Below are positions 2,961 through 19,470 of a stretch of 38,287 bases of DNA, one piece after another (the first letter of the stretch is position 1; each line of letters begins with the position of its first letter). The notes below the pieces were generated by a model, which did no database searches, was not told where the DNA came from, and saw only the letters and a program-made list of their open reading frames with translations. The stretch comes from Eubacterium sp. (lineage in GTDB: Bacteria; Bacillota; Clostridia; Lachnospirales; Lachnospiraceae). The DNA lies in the NCBI GenBank assembly GCA_024681515.1, contig JAILAR010000157.1, positions 1-38,287 on the forward strand. Direction: 5' to 3'. The position numbers and the translations under genes were made by a program.

Positions 2961-3039
2961 GTAAAACCGAAACAGAGCCGGGTCCCAAGGATTCCGGCTT
3001 TGCTATATTTTTCAATTCAGTTTCAGAATTCCGATCGCA

Positions 3040-3897
3040 TCAGAATTCCAGCTCTTTTTTGCGGAATACAGTCTGGGACAGGATCAACGGAAGGATGATG
3101 AATACACCCACCAGGATCACAATGTACAGCATTGCCTTCGCAAGGTTCGGGTCAACGGCCTGGATCATATCTTCAATATTTCCTTCTGTGGCCTTCGACA
3201 CATCCAGGCTTGCCTCCCTGCCAAACAGGTAGTCGGATGCAAGTTCATACACACCGCTGGGAAGGATATAGGAAGGCTTGATCTTGTTGTCCTTCAGGAA
3301 CGGGATCATTTCCAAAAGTAAAAATAACAGTCGGAACGCATCTGCTGCCAGCAGGATATAGAGCACCAGGCCGCCCGTCGGGTTCTGGGTCATATAAAGC
3401 ACCAGCATGGCGATTGCAACATTTGCGACCAGAAGAACGGAACTGAACCACATCTTTCCGATCATGACACCGATGCCGCTCATAGATGCCCCAAAAGCAA
3501 GTGCGATCACGATCCCGATCACGCTGAAGATCAGAAGCGATTCGACAAGCAGCGCCAGAACCTCATAGAATCTTGCAAGGATCAGTCTTCTTCTGGAGAT
3601 TCCGCGTCCGATGGCAGTCTGCATGGTACGGCTCTTAAAGTCATCGGTGAAGACTGTACTGTAGATCGGAATACCGATCAGAAACGGCATCAGACCATAA
3701 GAGATACTGAAATTGGACAGAAATGCGGAAGCCTTTCCACTCGTTTCTCCAGACATCATAGTATCTGCAGAACTTGGTTTCCACACTGAAATAATTGCCA
3801 TTATGATGATCAGCAGAACCGTAATGACCATACATATGATAAATGCTTTCTTTCTCTGTGCACGGCGAAGATCCGTGAGTACAAGTCTCTTCATCAT
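3040..3897 (-). CDS. ABC-2 type transporter permease
   Basis: 285 aa with a short basic N-terminus and about six hydrophobic segments (for example AFIICMVITVLLIIIMAIISV near residues 18-38, and AMLYIVILVGVFIILPLIL near the C-terminus), the topology of ABC-2 (BcrB/LanE/YxlG-like) permeases. Its start overlaps the stop of the ATPase gene by 4 bp (ATGA), so the two are translationally coupled and form one exporter. Families with this pair give resistance or immunity to bacitracin and lantibiotics, or export unknown compounds; the substrate cannot be assigned here. Confidence 0.85.
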   Translation of the reverse strand: MMKRLVLTDLRRAQRKKAFIICMVITVLLIIIMAIISVWKPSSADTMMSGETSGKASAFLSNFSISYGLMPFLIGIPIYSTVFTDDFKSRTMQTAIGRGISRRRLILARFYEVLALLVESLLIFSVIGIVIALAFGASMSGIGVMIGKMWFSSVLLVANVAIAMLVLYMTQNPTGGLVLYILLAADAFRLLFLLLEMIPFLKDNKIKPSYILPSGVYELASDYLFGREASLDVSKATEGNIEDMIQAVDPNLAKAMLYIVILVGVFIILPLILSQTVFRKKELEF

Positions 3898-4718
3898 TGT
3901 TCGCCACCTCCGATCAGTCCGAAATAGAAATCCTCCAGAGAGGTGGTCGCCTGCACGGTTCCCTTTACCTCTACGCCGCCGGCCGCCAGCAACTGCAGGG
4001 CTTTCTCCACATCTTCATCCGCCACGTTGATGGATGTCTGTTTGCTGCCGGTCCGCATCTCTTCCTGGGTCATTTCCTTCATGAGGATACCCTCATGAAC
4101 GATACCGAAGCGGTGAGCGGTATGCTCCAACTCACCCAGAATATGAGATGATACGATAATAGTCGTACCGTATTCTTCATTTACGCGTTGGATCATATGA
4201 CGGACATCCATGATACCCTGCGGATCCAGGCCATTGGTAGGCTCGTCGAAGATCAGCAGTTCCGGATTGCCCAGCATGGCATTTGCAAGGCCAAGCCGCT
4301 GTTTCATACCAAGCGAAAACATTTTCGCCGGTTTCAGGGCCGCATCCGTGTTCAGGCCCACCAAATCGAGCACGCGGTCCACCTCACTCACCTCTTTAAT
4401 TCCCTTCAGTCTCCGGAAATAATCCAGGTTCTGGCGTGCATTCAGGTAGCCATAGAAATTGGCACCTACAAAAAATCCGATTCGGCTACGGTTTCTGCGA
4501 TTCTCCCGATTATCCTTCCCTCCGAAAATGGACACCGTGCCTCCCTCAAAATGGGAAAGGCCCAGAACCACCTTGAACAAGGTAGTCTTACCTGCGCCGT
4601 TCTTTCCGACCAGACCGTAGATATCGCCTTTGTTTACGGTCATGTTTACACCCTTCAAAACCTGGTGCTTGCCGTAACTCTTTTTTATATCCTTCAGTTC
4701 GAGTACCGCTTCACTCAA
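3894..4718 (-). CDS. ABC transporter ATP-binding protein, BcrA/LanF-like
   Basis: 274 aa. Walker A is GLVGKNGAGKTT, the signature is FSLGMKQRLGLANAM, Walker B is LLIFDEPTNGLD and the switch His is in IVSSHI. The roughly 70-residue tail after the ATPase core is typical of the bacitracin/lantibiotic-immunity subgroup. The start codon is TTG at 4718, with GGAGG 9 nt upstream; no in-frame ATG fits better. It is followed by its permease with a 4-bp overlap. A promoter lies at 4762-4791. Confidence 0.9.
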   Translation of the reverse strand: MSEAVLELKDIKKSYGKHQVLKGVNMTVNKGDIYGLVGKNGAGKTTLFKVVLGLSHFEGGTVSIFGGKDNRENRRNRSRIGFFVGANFYGYLNARQNLDYFRRLKGIKEVSEVDRVLDLVGLNTDAALKPAKMFSLGMKQRLGLANAMLGNPELLIFDEPTNGLDPQGIMDVRHMIQRVNEEYGTTIIVSSHILGELEHTAHRFGIVHEGILMKEMTQEEMRTGSKQTSINVADEDVEKALQLLAAGGVEVKGTVQATTSLEDFYFGLIGGGEQ

Positions 4719-13717: not shown

Positions 13718-14500
13718 TTACGAATCCCTCCATAACGGTTCATAGACCGGATCCGTCAGGTCTCCCGAGAGATCATAGACCCTGCGGATATTCTCCGGTG
13801 TGAGCACAGTCTCAGGGGTACCGAGACGGGTCTGTCCGTTACCGGTAAATGCCAGGATCCGGTCTGCCAGAACCCGGGCCTGTCTTGTATCATGCAGTGC
13901 GATGACCATGGATTTCCCCTGTTCTTTCGCAGCAGTCCGAAGCATGCGGATCAGCGCGATCTGGTGATGCAGATCAAGAAAGGATGCCGGTTCATCCAGA
14001 AGGATCAGGGGTGTATCCTGGCAAAAGGCCCTGGCCAGCATGACCCGCTGTTTCTGTCCGTCGGAAAGCGTATGATAAACCCTGCTCTCCAGGTCCCCGG
14101 TCTCCGTCCATTCCATCGCCCGTTTCAGGACCTCTGTATCCTCCGGCCGTTCCGTCAGCATCAGATTCATATATGGATAGCGTCCCAGAAGGATCACCTC
14201 CCTGCAGGTAAGCTGCGCCTTCACTTCACGTCCCGTCGTAACAATACTGAGCTTCGACGCCCGCTCCGCATTTGAATATGACCGAAGATCCTTTCCCCCT
14301 AAGATCACCTCTCCTGTCAGTGGCGCCTGTGCACCGGACAAGGTTCGAAGCAAGGTACTCTTTCCGCAGCCATTCGGTCCCAGAAGGCAGAGGATCTCGC
14401 CGACTTCAAGAGAAAATGTGATATCCTCCGCAACAACATTTTTTCCGTAACCGATCCGAAGTCCTTTGGATTCCAGGATCAGACTTTGGCTCTGACTCAT
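13718..14500 (-). CDS. ABC transporter ATP-binding protein, FecE/BtuD type (corrinoid or iron complex)
   Basis: 260 aa. Walker A LLGPNGCGKSTLL, signature LSDGQKQRVMLARAF, Walker B LILLDEPASFLDL and switch His in ALHDTRQA place it in the metal-chelate uptake (FecE/BtuD/FhuC) family. The ATG overlaps the permease stop by 4 bp, so both are coupled. It energises import through the FecCD-type permease. The cobalamin riboswitch at the head of the operon favours a corrinoid or cobalt-complex substrate over iron, but these ATPases do not reveal substrate themselves. It is the last gene of the operon. Confidence 0.9.
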   Translation of the reverse strand: MSQSQSLILESKGLRIGYGKNVVAEDITFSLEVGEILCLLGPNGCGKSTLLRTLSGAQAPLTGEVILGGKDLRSYSNAERASKLSIVTTGREVKAQLTCREVILLGRYPYMNLMLTERPEDTEVLKRAMEWTETGDLESRVYHTLSDGQKQRVMLARAFCQDTPLILLDEPASFLDLHHQIALIRMLRTAAKEQGKSMVIALHDTRQARVLADRILAFTGNGQTRLGTPETVLTPENIRRVYDLSGDLTDPVYEPLWRDS

Positions 14501-15519
14501 ATCGAATCACCCGCCTTTCTGCGCTGCGCCAGGATCAGCATCACGATGACCACCGGTGCTCCGAGTATGGAAGTCACCACACTGATGGAAAGCTCCGTGG
14601 GAGCCAGCAGATTTCTGGCCAAAAGATCCGCAAAAAGGCAGAACACGCCACCTCCGAAAAATGTCAGGGGAACCGTTATTTTCGTCTGCTCTGTCCCCAG
14701 CAGTCTGCGGATCAGAAAAGGCACTGCGATCCCGACAAAGGATATCGGACCTGCAAACGCCGTAACCGTTGCGGCCAGAAGGCTTGCGATAAGGATCAGT
14801 GTGATCCGGAAACGTTTCACATTTACACCGAGGCTCGCCGCCACAGTCTCTCCCAGAAAGAACGCCTGCATGGGCTTTGCAAGAAACAGCGTTCCGACAA
14901 AAAGCGGCAATATGATGATCGCCGAGATCCGGACATGGGACCAGGTCAGTCCCGAAAAACTTCCGAGACTCCAGGAATGCAGACTGACCACATTGGAATC
15001 CTCTGCCAGATTGATCACCAGATCCGTAATGGCTGAGCAGATATATCCGATCATGATCCCGGCCACCAGAAGGCTCGCTCCTCTGGGTAATCTGCGGGAT
15101 ACCAGAAGGATCAAAAGCAGCGTGATCATCGCACCTGCAAAAGACGCGAGAATCATAAACACCGAAGACATATGTCCACCCAGTTTCAGCACCAGCGTAA
15201 GGGATAACGCCACCACCAGCTTTGCCCCGGAAGAAATACCCAGTACAAACGGTCCCGCGATGGGATTCTCAAAAAAGGTCTGAAGCAAAAGTCCCGAAAG
15301 AGCCAGCGCTCCGCCGAGAATGAGAGCCATGAGCACACGGGGAAGCCGAAGATCCAGGAGAATCCTCTTTGCTGTCTCCTCCGTCTCGCCTCCAAAGAGA
15401 CACTTTAAATCTGCAAAAGAGAGCTTTACCGATCCCAGCAAAAGGTTTAGGAGCACCAAAAGAAGCAGGGCCGCGATCAGTCCTGCGGTGACATATCGGA
15501 TTCTTCTGCTCTTCTTCAT
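14497..15519 (-). CDS. FecCD-family ABC transporter permease, BtuC type
   Basis: 340 aa, the normal length, with about ten hydrophobic helices. Family motifs include LRLPRVLMALILGGALALSG near the N-terminus, NPIAGPFVLGISSGA, and PISFVGIAVPFLIRRLLG in the C-terminal half. It forms the membrane channel for a metal-chelate or corrinoid importer. It lies 35 bp after the binding-protein gene and overlaps the ATPase gene by 4 bp. The substrate is inferred from the riboswitch, not from the protein. Confidence 0.92.
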   Translation of the reverse strand: MKKSRRIRYVTAGLIAALLLLVLLNLLLGSVKLSFADLKCLFGGETEETAKRILLDLRLPRVLMALILGGALALSGLLLQTFFENPIAGPFVLGISSGAKLVVALSLTLVLKLGGHMSSVFMILASFAGAMITLLLILLVSRRLPRGASLLVAGIMIGYICSAITDLVINLAEDSNVVSLHSWSLGSFSGLTWSHVRISAIIILPLFVGTLFLAKPMQAFFLGETVAASLGVNVKRFRITLILIASLLAATVTAFAGPISFVGIAVPFLIRRLLGTEQTKITVPLTFFGGGVFCLFADLLARNLLAPTELSISVVTSILGAPVVIVMLILAQRRKAGDSI

Positions 15520-15554
15520 ACCCTGCCTCTTATTCTACAAAACACTTTTATTTG

Positions 15555-16757
15555 TTACGGAAGAATTCGGAAAAATGTACCCTCCGATTTCCCCTCCAGG
15601 ATCCCGACCAATTCTTCCAGGACATCATTCATATGTGTCACACCCTGAAACAGATTATCGCCCGTTGCGTACACTCTGCCGTTTTTAACAGCCTGAAAAT
15701 CCTTCAGCAGCGGATATTCCTCCGTAAGCTTTTCCAGACTCTCCGGAGGGCCGTAGATCGCGCCGTTATAGATGAGAACATCCGCATCCTTAGCCTCCTG
15801 ATAAAACTGATCCGTCTGCAGATTCATGCTTCCGCTTGCACTGTCTTCCCCGGGATCCGAATCAAGAAAATAGGTCCCTCCGGCCAGGCGGATCATTTCC
15901 GCAACATAGGAACCGGGTCTTTGAACCGATACATACCCATTTGGATTAAAATAGAAATAAGCCACTTTCGGACCGTTTTCCGAGCTGTCCGTCTGACCGT
16001 TCTCCTTATCTGAAAGCGCGCGAAAGCGTTGATCCTCTGCATCAAAATAACGCTCTGCTTCCTCTTCTATTCCAAGGATGCACCCATACACCCGCACCCA
16101 TTCCAGCCGTCCCATAGGGTGCTTCTCATAGCTGGAATATTCGATCAGAACCGGAATCCCCAGTTGTTCCAGCCGTTCCTTTGTCTTCGGACTGTGCAGC
16201 AACATGGTATTCTCGATTGCCAGAGAAGCCCCTTCCTGCATCAGCCACTCGTAATCCGGTGCGTTATATTTACCGATATAGGTGATCCGCTCCTCCTCCA
16301 CCGCTGTTCGGATCTCCTCCTCTGACCAGTCAGAGGCCCGGGTACTGGTATAGCTCACAGCGTCCAGGGTCGAAAGTGCCTGAAAGAAGGACATCGCTGA
16401 AGATGAGGCCACATACAGCTTCTCCTGCGGCCGTCGGATCACTGTGATCTCTTCCGGCAGATCATCCGGAACTTTTTTATCTTCCGGAACGATCAGATAT
16501 TCCTGTCCGGAAATGGTGATCCTCCGGTACCCGTCCGATAAATGATCGATCTGAAACTCCGTGGCATAGGAATTAACCTGCCGGTTTTCGATCGTAAAGC
16601 CCTGCCATAGTTCCTCCCCGGAGGCCACCGTAGAAGCTGCCTTTTCCTTTGATCCGCCGTCGGCATTATCTGCAGTCTTTCCACATCCGAAGAGTACAAA
16701 AAGAAGCAGAGTCCACGCCAGAAGTATGCTCCTTCTTCCCGCTTTTCCCTGCTTCAT
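15555..16757 (-). CDS. Substrate-binding lipoprotein of the BtuF/FecB type
   Basis: 400 aa. The signal sequence ends in a lipobox (LFVLFGC), so it should be lipid-anchored on the outer face of the membrane. The body has the two-lobe type III (cluster A) binding-protein pattern with ITYIGKYNAPDYEWLMQEGA, GIPVLIEYSSYE and AEMIRLAGGTYF. The start at 16757 is chosen for its AGGAGG with 6-nt spacing; an upstream ATG at 16778 lies within a dispersed repeat and is rejected. It delivers the ligand to the FecCD-type permease encoded next. Confidence 0.9.
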   Translation of the reverse strand: MKQGKAGRRSILLAWTLLLFVLFGCGKTADNADGGSKEKAASTVASGEELWQGFTIENRQVNSYATEFQIDHLSDGYRRITISGQEYLIVPEDKKVPDDLPEEITVIRRPQEKLYVASSSAMSFFQALSTLDAVSYTSTRASDWSEEEIRTAVEEERITYIGKYNAPDYEWLMQEGASLAIENTMLLHSPKTKERLEQLGIPVLIEYSSYEKHPMGRLEWVRVYGCILGIEEEAERYFDAEDQRFRALSDKENGQTDSSENGPKVAYFYFNPNGYVSVQRPGSYVAEMIRLAGGTYFLDSDPGEDSASGSMNLQTDQFYQEAKDADVLIYNGAIYGPPESLEKLTEEYPLLKDFQAVKNGRVYATGDNLFQGVTHMNDVLEELVGILEGKSEGTFFRILP

Positions 16758-16770
16758 ATATTGCCTCCTG

Positions 16771-16798
16771 CTTCGCACTTCGTGCCTGATGCGCTCCT
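16771..16798 (-). repeat. Dispersed intergenic repeat (diverged copy)
   Basis: In gene orientation GGAGCGC, a CAGG spacer and then GCACGAAGTGCGAAGC, directly upstream of the AGGAGG of the binding-protein gene. It resembles the elements at 2911, 11198, 22540, 25292 and 29636 but is more diverged. Confidence 0.4.
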
Positions 16799-16813
16799 CA
16801 TTAAGTGAATGAT

Positions 16814-17746
16814 CTACTTCAATGTGGCAGAATCAAATGTCAGTGTATACTCGATCTCATGTGCCTCACTCATGGCTGTGGTATCGGCCTTCACCGGCAG
16901 CGGATAATCAAATCCGATCACCGGGATCTCAAAAGTGGAATTCTCCGTGGAAGGATTTTCCACCGGAAGAAACTTGGTACCATCCACGACCATATAATCA
17001 TATTTCGAACTGCTCCACACGATCTCCGCAGTCACCTTTCCGCCTTCCACCGTCAGCTTCGCAGGAGAATTCACGGTTGCCCGTCCGGAACCCCCTGCCA
17101 GTGTCACCGAAGCCGAATAGGTTCCGTCCGTCAGTCCCAGATCCGAAGCGTCTTTGTAGGGCTTCTCCCGGTAAGCCGTAAAAGGAAGACCTGCAGCTTC
17201 AAAGCACAGATCCCTGTCATACCAGAGTTCTTTTTTCTTGCTGAATGCCGCACATGGCACCGCCTTATTCAATGCTTCCACCGGAAATGTGAAGCTGTGA
17301 CTCCCGTCTGCTTCTTCTGTAAACGGGATACGATCAGCCTCAGAGGCCTTCTCTGCCTCATCTCCGTTTCCGGGATATACATACAGATATCCTTTGCCGC
17401 CCATGATCATTTTCGCCGTCATGGTGCCCTGTGATACCGTCAGCTGACATGCCGTAATATCAAACATGGAGGAACTGGACTTTACAGTGATGTCATAGAC
17501 ACCGTCCTTTAGCTGATCTCCCGTGACCGTGATCATTCCTTCGGTGACGACCTGGACCGCTTCAACCGTTGTCTTCTCCGTATTCTTCTCGGTATTGTTT
17601 TTGATTTCCGACCCCGCCGCCTCACCTGATGTCGAAGACGTCTGCTCCGAGGAATCCTTTGTCTCCGTTGATCCCGACGATCCGCAGCCGACCAGCATCG
17701 TCGTTACTGCAAGTCCGAGAATCAGTCCTCTCCATTTTTTCTTCAT
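16814..17746 (-). CDS. Lipoprotein with two NEAT-like domains (tentative)
   Basis: 310 aa. The lipobox TTMLVGC is followed by a Ser/Thr/Glu-rich linker and two similar beta-rich units. Both begin D-G-x-Y (DGVYDITVKSSSSMFDI and DGTYSASVTLAGGSGRATV). The second has LTVEGGKVTAEIVWSSSKYD, then YMVVDGTKF, FEIPVIGFDYPLPV and EIEYTLTFD, which is close to the pattern of NEAT heme-binding domains. The assignment to NEAT is inference; no axial Tyr pair was proven. The start at 17746 is taken because GGAGA lies 7 nt upstream. It sits between the CbiK lipoprotein and the binding protein of the same riboswitch operon, so it may capture tetrapyrroles at the surface. Confidence 0.75.
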   Translation of the reverse strand: MKKKWRGLILGLAVTTMLVGCGSSGSTETKDSSEQTSSTSGEAAGSEIKNNTEKNTEKTTVEAVQVVTEGMITVTGDQLKDGVYDITVKSSSSMFDITACQLTVSQGTMTAKMIMGGKGYLYVYPGNGDEAEKASEADRIPFTEEADGSHSFTFPVEALNKAVPCAAFSKKKELWYDRDLCFEAAGLPFTAYREKPYKDASDLGLTDGTYSASVTLAGGSGRATVNSPAKLTVEGGKVTAEIVWSSSKYDYMVVDGTKFLPVENPSTENSTFEIPVIGFDYPLPVKADTTAMSEAHEIEYTLTFDSATLK

Positions 17747-17845
17747 ATTCGAATCTCCGTAAATATCGATAGTGTCCCACACTGTCAACACATCGACTGT
17801 CTTTACTCCACAGTGTCACTTGCTGTATTACAGTACTCTCCGACA

Positions 17846-18859
17846 CTATTTTACACTATCAATGGCAGCCTGGGCATGATCCACATAGATCTGGCGGATG
17901 GCTTCATTTTCTCCGAGACCGCGGAGCAGGCAAACCACCTCATAACCGTCCTTTGTAAATGCTGTCTTCCAGGAATCTTCCTCATCTCCGGCCATATCAT
18001 TATTCGCATGATCACCGGCAACTACCATCAGAGGCTCCAAAACCACGCGCTTATAACCGCCCTTCTTCACTGCCTCACGAACGTCATCCAGCGACGGTGT
18101 TGCCTCAACGGTACCGATAAAATAATTCTTGTAACCGTCTGCCGTCAGAAGGTCCTGCATTTTCTGATATACACCGTTTGATTCATGCTCGGTTCCGTGG
18201 CCCATGAATACGATGGCCGTCTGTCCGTCATCATACTCCTTTGTCCATTCCGTGATTGCCTTTTCCACACGCTTGAAATCATCATCCGATGTGAGCAGCG
18301 GCTTGCCGATGGCGATCTTCTCAAATGTATCGGAATACTTTGCCACCTTTCCGGTCAGCTCATCGTACTCAATTCCGTTCATCAGGTGGGTCGGCTGAAC
18401 CACCAGCGTCTTTACGTTATTTTTAACCGCACGCTCCAGCGCCTCATCCACATTATCGATATGGATCTTGTCACGCTTTTCCACATGATTGATGACGATA
18501 TCTGCCGTAAAGCCACGGCGTACGGAATAATCCTTAAAGGAATCCTCCAGAGACTGCTCGATGGCTCCGATGGTCAGACGACGTGAATCATTGAAACTGG
18601 TTCCGAAGCTGATAACAAGAAGTTCTCTGTCTCCGATCTCATCCTGATTTCTTACGTTGTCCAGGGATGCATCTCCCGTTGTGTAATCCTCTTCTTCATC
18701 CTCGCCGCCCTGTTCGGAAGCCGCCTGGGTTACCGCCTGGCTGGATGCTTCGGTATTGGCAGATGTGGTTGCCTCACCCTTGGATCCACAGCCCGTCAGA
18801 GACATACCCAGTGCCAGTGTCAGGATCATTGCCGTTTTTCTGAATGTATTCTTTCTCAT
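17846..18859 (-). CDS. cbiK: Lipid-anchored sirohydrochlorin cobaltochelatase CbiK homologue
   Basis: 337 aa. The N-terminus is a lipoprotein signal (lipobox LTGC, Cys24) and an acidic linker to about residue 73, so the enzyme should sit outside the membrane. The CbiK core follows: LLVISFGTSFNDSRRLTIGAI, QPTHLMNGIEYDEL (His158, Glu164), FMGHGTEHE (His221) and AGDHANNDMAGDEEDSW (His284). These match the His/Glu metal site known for CbiK, which inserts cobalt into sirohydrochlorin. A surface CbiK cannot serve cytosolic cobalamin synthesis directly; metal capture, tetrapyrrole binding or removal of metal are alternatives (a periplasmic CbiK that binds heme is known in Desulfovibrio). It is the first gene after the cobalamin riboswitch. 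Confidence 0.92.
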   Translation of the reverse strand: MRKNTFRKTAMILTLALGMSLTGCGSKGEATTSANTEASSQAVTQAASEQGGEDEEEDYTTGDASLDNVRNQDEIGDRELLVISFGTSFNDSRRLTIGAIEQSLEDSFKDYSVRRGFTADIVINHVEKRDKIHIDNVDEALERAVKNNVKTLVVQPTHLMNGIEYDELTGKVAKYSDTFEKIAIGKPLLTSDDDFKRVEKAITEWTKEYDDGQTAIVFMGHGTEHESNGVYQKMQDLLTADGYKNYFIGTVEATPSLDDVREAVKKGGYKRVVLEPLMVVAGDHANNDMAGDEEDSWKTAFTKDGYEVVCLLRGLGENEAIRQIYVDHAQAAIDSVK

Positions 18860-19074
18860 GTTTTCCTCCTGTGAACGATTGTCTGAAGTGTCAACCGAAT
18901 CTCTTCATCCGGTTGAAAACCTGATTTCATGATCCGATTCCCCGCGTTCAAAGGTCTGCTCGTTCCCCGCAGCACAGCACCCAAAATTCGTCATGACGAA
19001 GCTTTTTGCGAAATCTCTTTGCATAAGCATTACTCACGCATCACACCTGTGTCATTCACTCATTTTCGGGCATC
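18860..19074 (-). promoter_or_regulatory. Leader between riboswitch and cbiK
   Basis: This stretch of about 215 bp has no credible gene. It holds a perfect 14-bp palindrome TTCGTCATGACGAA, and a CAACCG/CGGTTG hairpin (18892-18897 with 18910-18915) about 20 nt upstream of the AGGAGG of cbiK. Confidence 0.4.
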
Positions 19075-19412
19075 AAAAAAACGCTGCGTACCGCGCCGCG
19101 TAGCTGACTGCAGTATGGTACGACCAAGGCCTCGTGGTCTGAAGCATTAGTGCTTCCGTACCGACAGCCGGCAGGTTTCCGGACTCCGAGCGATGCTGCC
19201 GTCTTCCCAACCGTGAAACTACGAATCTCAGACAAATGTCTGTATCCGTCGATTCCATGCTACGGGTCAGTGACACTTTAACAACACCCTGCATATCATA
19301 ACGCAGCTCGTTACCGTGACGAGATCGTGCAGGCCTTGCACCTGCTTCCCTTTTACCCTCCGGCCCGAAGCTGCTCACTCCGTCGGAGGCACCGTCTGAC
19401 ATATCCGTGCAA
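19075..19412 (-). ncRNA. Cobalamin riboswitch with terminator/antiterminator platform
   Basis: In gene orientation the conserved core runs from GACGGTGCC near 19405 through AAAAGGGAAGCAGGTGCAAG, then GTCACTG (19268-19274), to the B12 box GAGTCCGGAAACCTGCCGG (19168-19186). Downstream, CGTACC at 19117-19122 can pair either with GGTACG at 19157-19162 (antiterminator side) or with GGTACG at 19087-19092, followed by seven T at 19075-19081 (terminator side). Expected logic: cobalamin binding favours termination and shuts off cbiK, the NEAT-like lipoprotein and the transporter. Confidence 0.93.
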
Positions 19413-19434
19413 CGCAGACACGAATACGGCTATC

Positions 19435-19470
19435 TTTATATCACAAGAGGCGCATCGTGTCAACCGATGC
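19435..19470 (-). promoter_or_regulatory. Riboswitch operon promoter with dyad over the -35
   Basis: Perfect TTGACA (19458-19463), 17-bp spacer, TATAAA (19435-19440). A perfect 6-bp inverted repeat, GCATCG at 19452-19457 and CGATGC at 19465-19470, brackets the -35 with a 7-bp centre. Confidence 0.8.

Follow-up and report, generated by a model that had tools for sequence, protein, structure and literature searches.

The window considered here is positions 1 to 38,287 of contig JAILAR010000157.1 of a Eubacterium sp. (Lachnospiraceae; assembly GCA_024681515.1). Between positions 19463 and 13718 it carries five close-set genes on the minus strand, which we call K, N, F, C and D, behind a promoter and a cobalamin riboswitch. 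K encodes a homologue of the cobaltochelatase CbiK that is predicted to be an exported lipoprotein, N a second lipoprotein, and F, C and D the parts of a putative importer. We consider it likely that this operon is, in some form, part of the cobalt supply for de novo B12 synthesis and not of salvage. The original prediction, made from the sequence of the window, had described a surface tetrapyrrole or metal module under B12 control. The features that it named are all in place, on the minus strand:

19435..19463, minus strand: promoter, TTGACA (19463-19458), a 17-nt spacer and TATAAA (19440-19435), read by eye.
19411-19153, minus strand: cobalamin riboswitch aptamer RF00174, full length (1-189), scoring 72.4 bits where the gathering score is 31.5.
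17846..18859, minus strand: K, lipoprotein CbiK, 337 aa; lipobox LTGC with Cys24, a Ser/Glu-rich linker and a CbiK domain from about residue 80.
16814..17746, minus strand: N, lipoprotein, 310 aa, lipobox Cys21; two predicted NEAT domains, about residues 73-182 and 205-303.
15555..16757, minus strand: F, substrate-binding lipoprotein of class III (Peripla_BP_2), 400 aa, Cys25; Pfam 2.4e-23.
14497..15519, minus strand: C, permease of the FecCD/BtuC family, 340 aa; Pfam FecCD 1.5e-79.
13718..14500, minus strand: D, ABC ATPase, 260 aa; Pfam ABC_tran 5.6e-31; its first 4 bases are shared with the end of C.

By sequence, K belongs to the CbiK family, carries an export signal and has kept its metal site intact, and chelatase activity is predicted for it. 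It matches the Pfam family CbiK (PF06180) at 1.2e-85 over residues 80-333, which corresponds to positions 3-261 of the 262 in the profile; against the NCBIfam equivalog SiroCoChCbiK it scores 240 bits, under the cut-off of 400. A phmmer search of the PDB returned three matches: 1qgo (5.8e-47), FetB 9b86 (6.2e-46), which we take to be the same protein as IhtB, and CbiKp 2xvx (1.3e-30). The metal site Glu164/His221/His284 of K aligns with Glu89/His145/His207 of Salmonella CbiK, where Glu89 is a metal ligand. Both of these histidines matter for cobalt insertion by the Salmonella enzyme (PMC7689651). The triad is invariant in all 80 relatives compared and in all 54 exported rows of the family sample (one gene being counted twice in the latter). 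The position aligned with His96 of CbiKp, counted by hand from the alignment, is occupied in K by Asp166; His96 is a heme ligand in that protein. The lipobox contradicts the cytosolic placement that is usual for CbiK, a class II cobaltochelatase. The export signal appears to be kept: a strict lipobox was found in K of 71 of the 80 relatives, and several of the others look by eye like other kinds of signal peptide. The lipobox counts in this paper come from a regular expression, which accepted a few doubtful cases and missed at least one (L060).

On its modelled structure, N is a double-NEAT lipoprotein. It is filed as NEAT by fold because sequence searches of the PDB gave nothing meaningful: N by itself found one chance-level match (E 0.27), and a profile of 63 N sequences found none at E <= 1. 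An HMM search of 16814-17746, which the original prediction had proposed, gave a sub-threshold match to Pfam NEAT (24.2 bits, cut-off 32.8, E 4.9e-5, residues 225-305), and three relatives with a NEAT match also lie under the gathering score, at 18.2, 20.6 and 25.5 bits. The AlphaFold2 model has a mean pLDDT of 86.5 and a pTM of 0.73 and is good over both domains. Its best PDB folds in Foldseek are NEAT proteins, namely IsdH, IsdB and IsdX1 (IsdH N2-N3, 4ij2, 4.9e-7; IsdX1, 3sik, 6.8e-5, with a TM-score of 0.68 by target), so the description of N as two similar, NEAT-like beta domains was right. The single-domain matches carry the NEAT case, the tandem matches having an overall TM-score of about 0.27 and a high root-mean-square deviation. 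In NEAT domains the tyrosine that is the heme ligand belongs to a YxxxY motif and sits in the last strand. Tyr175 and Tyr299 of N, invariant in the 63 sequences, are each in the last strand of their domain; the second tyrosine is absent. A strict lipobox was found in N of 66 of 78 relatives.

F, C and D together are, as judged from their protein families, an importer of the metal-chelate class. Among PDB structures, the model of F (pLDDT 89.5) comes closest to binding proteins for siderophores and heme and to unassigned ones, and BtuF ranks 27th; by sequence the PDB match is 5joq (1.8e-5), the top NCBIfam match is IsdE (weak), and no BtuF model matched. A strict lipobox was found in F of 52 of 75 relatives. 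The best NCBIfam model for C is BtuC (1.5e-61), at 208 bits against a cut-off of 334, and D gives 103 bits with BtuD, for which the cut-off is 281. The term BtuFCD-type, used in the original prediction, therefore fits by fold class only, as the BtuC and BtuD models stay under their cut-offs and F lacks a BtuF match.

Several further features of D may be mentioned. In many relatives it has a conserved C-terminal extension of about 110 residues, missing from the D of the window, which starts with a glycine-rich stretch like that of a nucleotide-binding fold. An example is L038 8131-9270, residues about 250-379, to which Pfam gave no name (L038 is the sole relative scanned). D is fused to CbiD in L066 12011-13918 and L139 5635-7587 (by Pfam), and to a protein of the CbiA/CobB type in L117 367-2742.

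The five genes belong together. The relatives examined are the best 80 of 547 found with K alone, picked by similarity to K; the nearest K among these comes from a Lachnospiraceae metagenome-assembled genome. The order K-N-F-C-D recurs in nearly all the fetched loci of sufficient length, and phmmer matches at E <= 1e-3 are present for N in 78 of the 80 loci, for F in 75, for C in 70 and for D in 68; a contig end accounts for many of the gaps. Since the arrangement recurs across the 80 relatives, it is not due to chance. The same is seen in the family sample, with which the relatives partly overlap (L060 and L094 have an identical K). Its 53 exported-K loci represent 52 genomes other than the window's own, G165 appearing twice with overlapping stretches, L118 and L119. 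In 51 of these 53 loci N lies close to exported K or is fused to it (L144 and L151 are without it), which holds for none of the 27 fetched loci of cytosolic K; F, C and D are near in 44, 40 and 32, some being cut off by the end of the fetched stretch. Among the relatives there are seven two-part fusion frames, six of N with F and one of K with N; among the 53 sample loci N-F fusions number 13 and K-N fusions 15, those of L118 and L119 being the same gene.

The riboswitch belongs to the unit as well. RF00174 (E <= 0.001) lies directly upstream of K in 72 of the 80 relatives, in 70 of them above the gathering score (L007 and L075 are below), and in 57 of the 80 it is the only scored match of the genome. 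These figures come from at most 40 or 59 scored candidates per genome (two runs), with loci matched by coordinates and contig names unchecked. Of the eight misses, four have K at a contig end (L024, L027, L035, L059); the others are L031, L057, L063 and L080. In the sample RF00174 is present at 48 of the 53 loci, the exceptions being L102, L122, L137, L140 and L151. The window's own genome (3.13 Mb, 97% complete) contains one CbiK match and one RF00174 match at E <= 0.001, both at the operon, with 150 of 210 first-look RNA candidates scored. One locus, L119, has tandem exported CbiK genes (1078-2358 and 3015-4682), each behind its own cobalamin riboswitch. Conservation of gene order in relatives was a point on which the original prediction had staked its interpretation, and co-occurrence of the lipobox CbiK, the NEAT gene and the riboswitch was a check that it had proposed; both are borne out by these counts. 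Its riboswitch, its lipobox CbiK with Cys24 and conserved metal-site His and Glu, and its importer likewise hold.

What is new here is what the unit goes with, namely genomes that are positive for CbiD and that, where they have no CbiK match besides exported K, are missing the short form of the cobalt importer CbiM. The family sample consists of 160 genomes, drawn evenly and at least 90% complete, which were searched for CbiK, for CbiM and for CbiD, whose presence marks de novo synthesis of cobalamin. CbiK and CbiD occur together in 91 of them, CbiK without CbiD in 5, CbiD without CbiK in 5 and neither in 59. Exported K was found in 53 genomes, the window's own among them, and cytosolic CbiK in 61, with 18 having both, so that 35 genomes gave no CbiK match besides exported K; the N-termini of 53 exported and 27 cytosolic loci were read, and the remaining matches were called cytosolic by the length of the open frame alone. 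CbiD is present in all 53 genomes with exported K, compared with 43 of the 107 others (P 5.6e-16; this and the P values below are uncorrected for phylogeny), and exported K is in none of the 64 genomes that are negative for CbiD.

CbiM was divided by open frame into a short class of 251-317 aa and a long class of 335-434 aa, a split of our own. Short CbiM is present in none of the 35 exported-only genomes but in 27 of the 56 that have both CbiD and a cytosolic CbiK (Fisher 1.4e-7). The 367-aa protein of G095, which has an ATPase-CbiK fusion as a neighbour, went into the long class; if it is taken as short the latter figure becomes 28 of 56 and P becomes 4.9e-8. For any full-length CbiM the corresponding counts are 6 of 35 and 32 of 56 (P 1.8e-4). 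Within the genomes that have exported K, short CbiM is found in 4 of the 18 that also have cytosolic CbiK and in none of the 35 that do not (P 0.010). Of the 28 CbiM matches tested in the sample, 17 are within 6 kb of a cytosolic CbiK.

The relatives give a similar picture. CbiD was found in 74 of the 80 and in the window's own genome (two runs, with 43 of 46 including the own genome and 33 of 36, one genome being in both). A search of 46 genomes for CbiX gave nothing beyond CbiK proteins, and by the CbiX and CbiK searches 41 of the 46 have no class II chelatase other than exported K; the other five (G004, G025, G038, G066, G075) have further CbiK copies. CbiM is present at E < 1e-50 in 8 of the 46, and the only short one (265 aa) is in G075, which has a second CbiK. 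The neighbourhood of the unit also looks cobalamin-synthetic, with a CbiP type in 42 of 147 loci and a CbiC type in 28 of 147 (named by eye). In the window's own genome a cbi/cob cluster lies on contig C106, where CbiD was identified by search, CbiJ and part of CobU by Pfam and most other genes by eye. The contig of this cluster also has a GTPase-like frame (L167 4074-5129), which by eye resembles the COG0523/CobW group.

Some CbiK proteins have other partners. In L107 613-2274, L110 5992-7674 and L112 5983-7692 cytosolic CbiK is fused behind an ABC ATPase (Pfam on these three), and L108, L111 and L113 are ATPase-CbiK fusions by profile matches; CbiM is close on the contig. By their domains these are a cobalt-importer ATPase and a chelatase in one protein. 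CbiK is fused to porphobilinogen deaminase in L114 577-2304 and to a tetrapyrrole methylase in L121 5245-6774.

With respect to its descent, K was placed in a tree of 109 rows made up of the window, a random draw of 25 from the 80 relatives, the sample (54 exported rows and 26 cytosolic ones) and three PDB rows. The 80 exported proteins need two changes; cytosolic L154 lies inside them, and several other cytosolic rows branch off immediately outside. Export may thus go back to roughly one event in this lineage, starting from a cytosolic CbiK, with a later loss. FetB falls with CbiKp and Salmonella CbiK, apart from exported K, on long branches; the bootstrap of the tree had not settled.

The surroundings of the operon can be described briefly. 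The flanking frames resemble topoisomerase I (13564-11510) and chorismate synthase (20647-19520). The promoter at 19463-19435 is excluded by the rule of the promoter scanner, which requires the second hexamer to end in T; the scanner itself gave 7 matches in the region, close to the 5.4 expected from shuffling.

How might these genes work together? We favour insertion of cobalt at the surface followed by import, because the chelatase is outside, the fold of its partner is one that binds tetrapyrroles, and the unit is found where sister genomes have a cytosolic CbiK (there often with short CbiM). A sirohydrochlorin-type ring would be made inside the cell and released. K, at the outer face, would insert Co2+ into the ring, N would hold the resulting cobalt tetrapyrrole, much as the NEAT fold elsewhere holds heme, F-C-D would import it, and the remaining cbi pathway would complete the corrin. 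Sirohydrochlorin would in effect be a metallophore that collects cobalt, and uptake would be shut off by B12 via the riboswitch. That the operon supplies cobalt in this manner, from outside the cytoplasmic membrane, for anaerobic, early-insertion cobalamin synthesis is a suggestion to which we give somewhat less than an even chance. A little more tentative is the broader idea that bacteria of the Lachnospiraceae/Ruminococcus kind have a B12 pathway split between compartments, its precursor being exported free of metal, metallated by exported CbiK, carried on NEAT and imported. If so, sirohydrochlorin might be both an intermediate and a cobaltophore, and NEAT might serve a cobalt tetrapyrrole instead of heme, a view that we hold with equal reserve. 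The original prediction of a surface module stands insofar as an exported chelatase, a NEAT protein, an importer and a riboswitch are conserved as a unit; its notion of general capture does not, as the unit tracks de novo synthesis.

A number of observations weigh against surface insertion. The nearest folds of F point to no single ligand. No F is present within 3.5 kb in 9 of the 53 sample loci, and both N and F are missing from L144 and L151. Both kinds of K are held by 18 of the 53 exported-K genomes. Of the 35 exported-only genomes, 6 have a full-length protein of the CbiM family that falls into the long class and is perhaps NikMN, and among cobalt transporters the comparison covers CbiM. 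Other chelatases must exist, because five CbiD-positive sample genomes (G082, G111, G157, G189, G201) show no CbiK match at E <= 0.001. Conversely, six of the 80 relatives (G017, G020, G038, G046, G048, G062) have the operon but no CbiD match. On contig C106 no hem, cobA, cysG or chelatase gene was recognised by eye and with four Pfam scans, no genome-wide search for hemA-D, cobA or cysG having been made, and among the 32 largest neighbour clusters no exporter of a tetrapyrrole precursor is consistent in the flanks. Finally, the genome associations are uncorrected for phylogeny while exported K forms nearly one clade. To these may be added that a cytosolic chelatase of the CysG/Met8 type may be present and could put cobalt into the ring, and this is the point from which a different explanation starts.

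According to this explanation K would be only a high-affinity receptor for Co2+, inserting nothing into a ring; F-C-D would import Co2+ or a small chelate, and an enzyme of the CysG type would do the insertion inside. The linkage to CbiD, the missing short CbiM and the riboswitch would all be accounted for with no need for ring export. Such a role fits two of the three facts named above (the chelatase outside, the tetrapyrrole-binding partner and the unit standing where others have cytosolic CbiK). It leaves the NEAT domains unexplained, the best folds of N being heme-binding proteins; the ligand-bound proteins among the folds of F carry chelates or heme and few carry plain iron; and no cytosolic CbiK or CbiX was found in 41 of the 46 genomes. 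We regard it as rather unlikely, though it is the best of the alternatives.

Uptake or recapture of corrinoids is another suggestion. F-C-D would then be an importer of the BtuFCD type, with K and N as surface binders of corrinoids, letting producers recover the cobamides they lose. This fits the cobalamin riboswitch best, C does score best with BtuC among NCBIfam models, and the six operon-bearing relatives with no CbiD match, whose genomes may be incomplete, would be in keeping with it. However, salvage would be expected often in non-producers, and the 64 CbiD-negative sample genomes, whatever their own use of B12 may be, are without exported K; on that count plain B12 salvage is disfavoured. 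Neither the invariant Glu/His/His, nor the 35 genomes with no other CbiK, nor the anti-association with CbiM is explained in this way, and we consider corrinoid uptake or recapture unlikely.

Very improbable, in our opinion, is acquisition of heme or iron of the Isd/Iht kind, with NEAT capturing heme, exported CbiK stripping the iron and the importer taking up heme or iron. The NEAT fold of N speaks for it, as does the presence of FetB 9b86 among the three PDB sequence matches of K. So does the Iht system, which includes a lipoprotein CbiK homologue, a binding protein, a permease and an ATPase (PMC10913741). Against it, control is by B12 rather than by iron (no search for Fur sites was made), the unit is linked to CbiD and to cbi/cob neighbours, exported K and FetB are not grouped in the tree (where the branches are long), and the position of the heme ligand His96 of CbiKp is taken by Asp166. 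The parallel with a heme-binding Desulfovibrio CbiK, drawn in the original prediction, is weakened by this residue and by the tree, which separates exported K from CbiKp and FetB on long branches.

We give hardly any credence to the idea that an internal start yields a second form of K beside the lipoprotein, a cytosolic chelatase that would keep cobalt insertion in the cytosol, for although 46 of the 76 checkable relatives (of 80) have an in-frame ATG, GTG or TTG in the stretch that runs from the Cys or linker to the domain (ATG in 16, a start with a Shine-Dalgarno-like stretch in 24), the K of the window has none from Cys24 to the CbiK domain, nor do 30 of the 76.

Returning to surface insertion of cobalt, we know of several systems with which it can be compared. 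One of them is Iht of Porphyromonas gingivalis (IhtB/FetB, IhtA, IhtC-E), where, as here, an exported lipoprotein homologous to CbiK lies by a binding protein, a permease and an ATPase, and where IhtB has been proposed to remove iron from heme (both PMC10913741). Iht differs in having the TonB receptor IhtA and in serving heme and iron; here there are two NEAT domains by fold and a B12 riboswitch, the unit is linked to de novo synthesis of cobalamin, and exported K stands apart in the tree, on long branches. No gene for a TonB-dependent receptor is present in the K-N-F-C-D operon, a statement about operon content, as the genome was not searched for TonB.

In Desulfovibrio, CbiKp (PDB 2xvx, 2xvy, 2xvz) is an extracytoplasmic, periplasmic CbiK, which is a likeness to K. 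Desulfovibrio also has a B12 element over btuCDF and cbiK-cbiL, whose cbiK may be CbiKp, and the CbiK-bearing delta-proteobacteria are without homologues of any known cobalt transporter, cbtX being proposed as the transporter (PMC545781). That proposal of cbtX is a difference from the unit here, as are the lack of any NEAT protein among those named in the passages on it and the His96 of CbiKp where the window has Asp166.

In sister genomes with cytosolic CbiK and CbiMNQO the CbiK family is the same and so, presumably, is its job, but there the cobalt importer has the chelatase on its inner side, and it is the short CbiM of that arrangement that exported-only genomes are without. Here the chelatase would be on the outer side of another importer. 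In the Isd systems of Staphylococcus and Bacillus, NEAT domains feed a class III binding protein and an ABC importer (IsdEF). The likeness to this relay is that IsdH and IsdX1 are the best folds of N and IsdE is the best, if weak, NCBIfam match of F. Unlike Isd proteins, N would be anchored as a lipoprotein, is sometimes fused to CbiK or F, is controlled by B12 and is too distant for a PDB sequence match. A literature search found no paper joining a lipoprotein CbiK, or NEAT, with a cobalamin riboswitch, most subscription journals being outside its scope.

Zhang et al. (PMC2667541) list 13 B12-synthesising species without recognised cobalt transporters and without transporters of unassigned function. 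The operon is a concrete, conserved, riboswitch-led candidate for a source of cobalt in gut and rumen bacteria. If surface insertion is correct, cofactor synthesis has one of its core steps outside the cell, and pathway predictions that assume a cytosolic CbiK would be wrong for these genomes. A precursor that leaves the cell before it receives its metal could also be stolen or shared between gut species.

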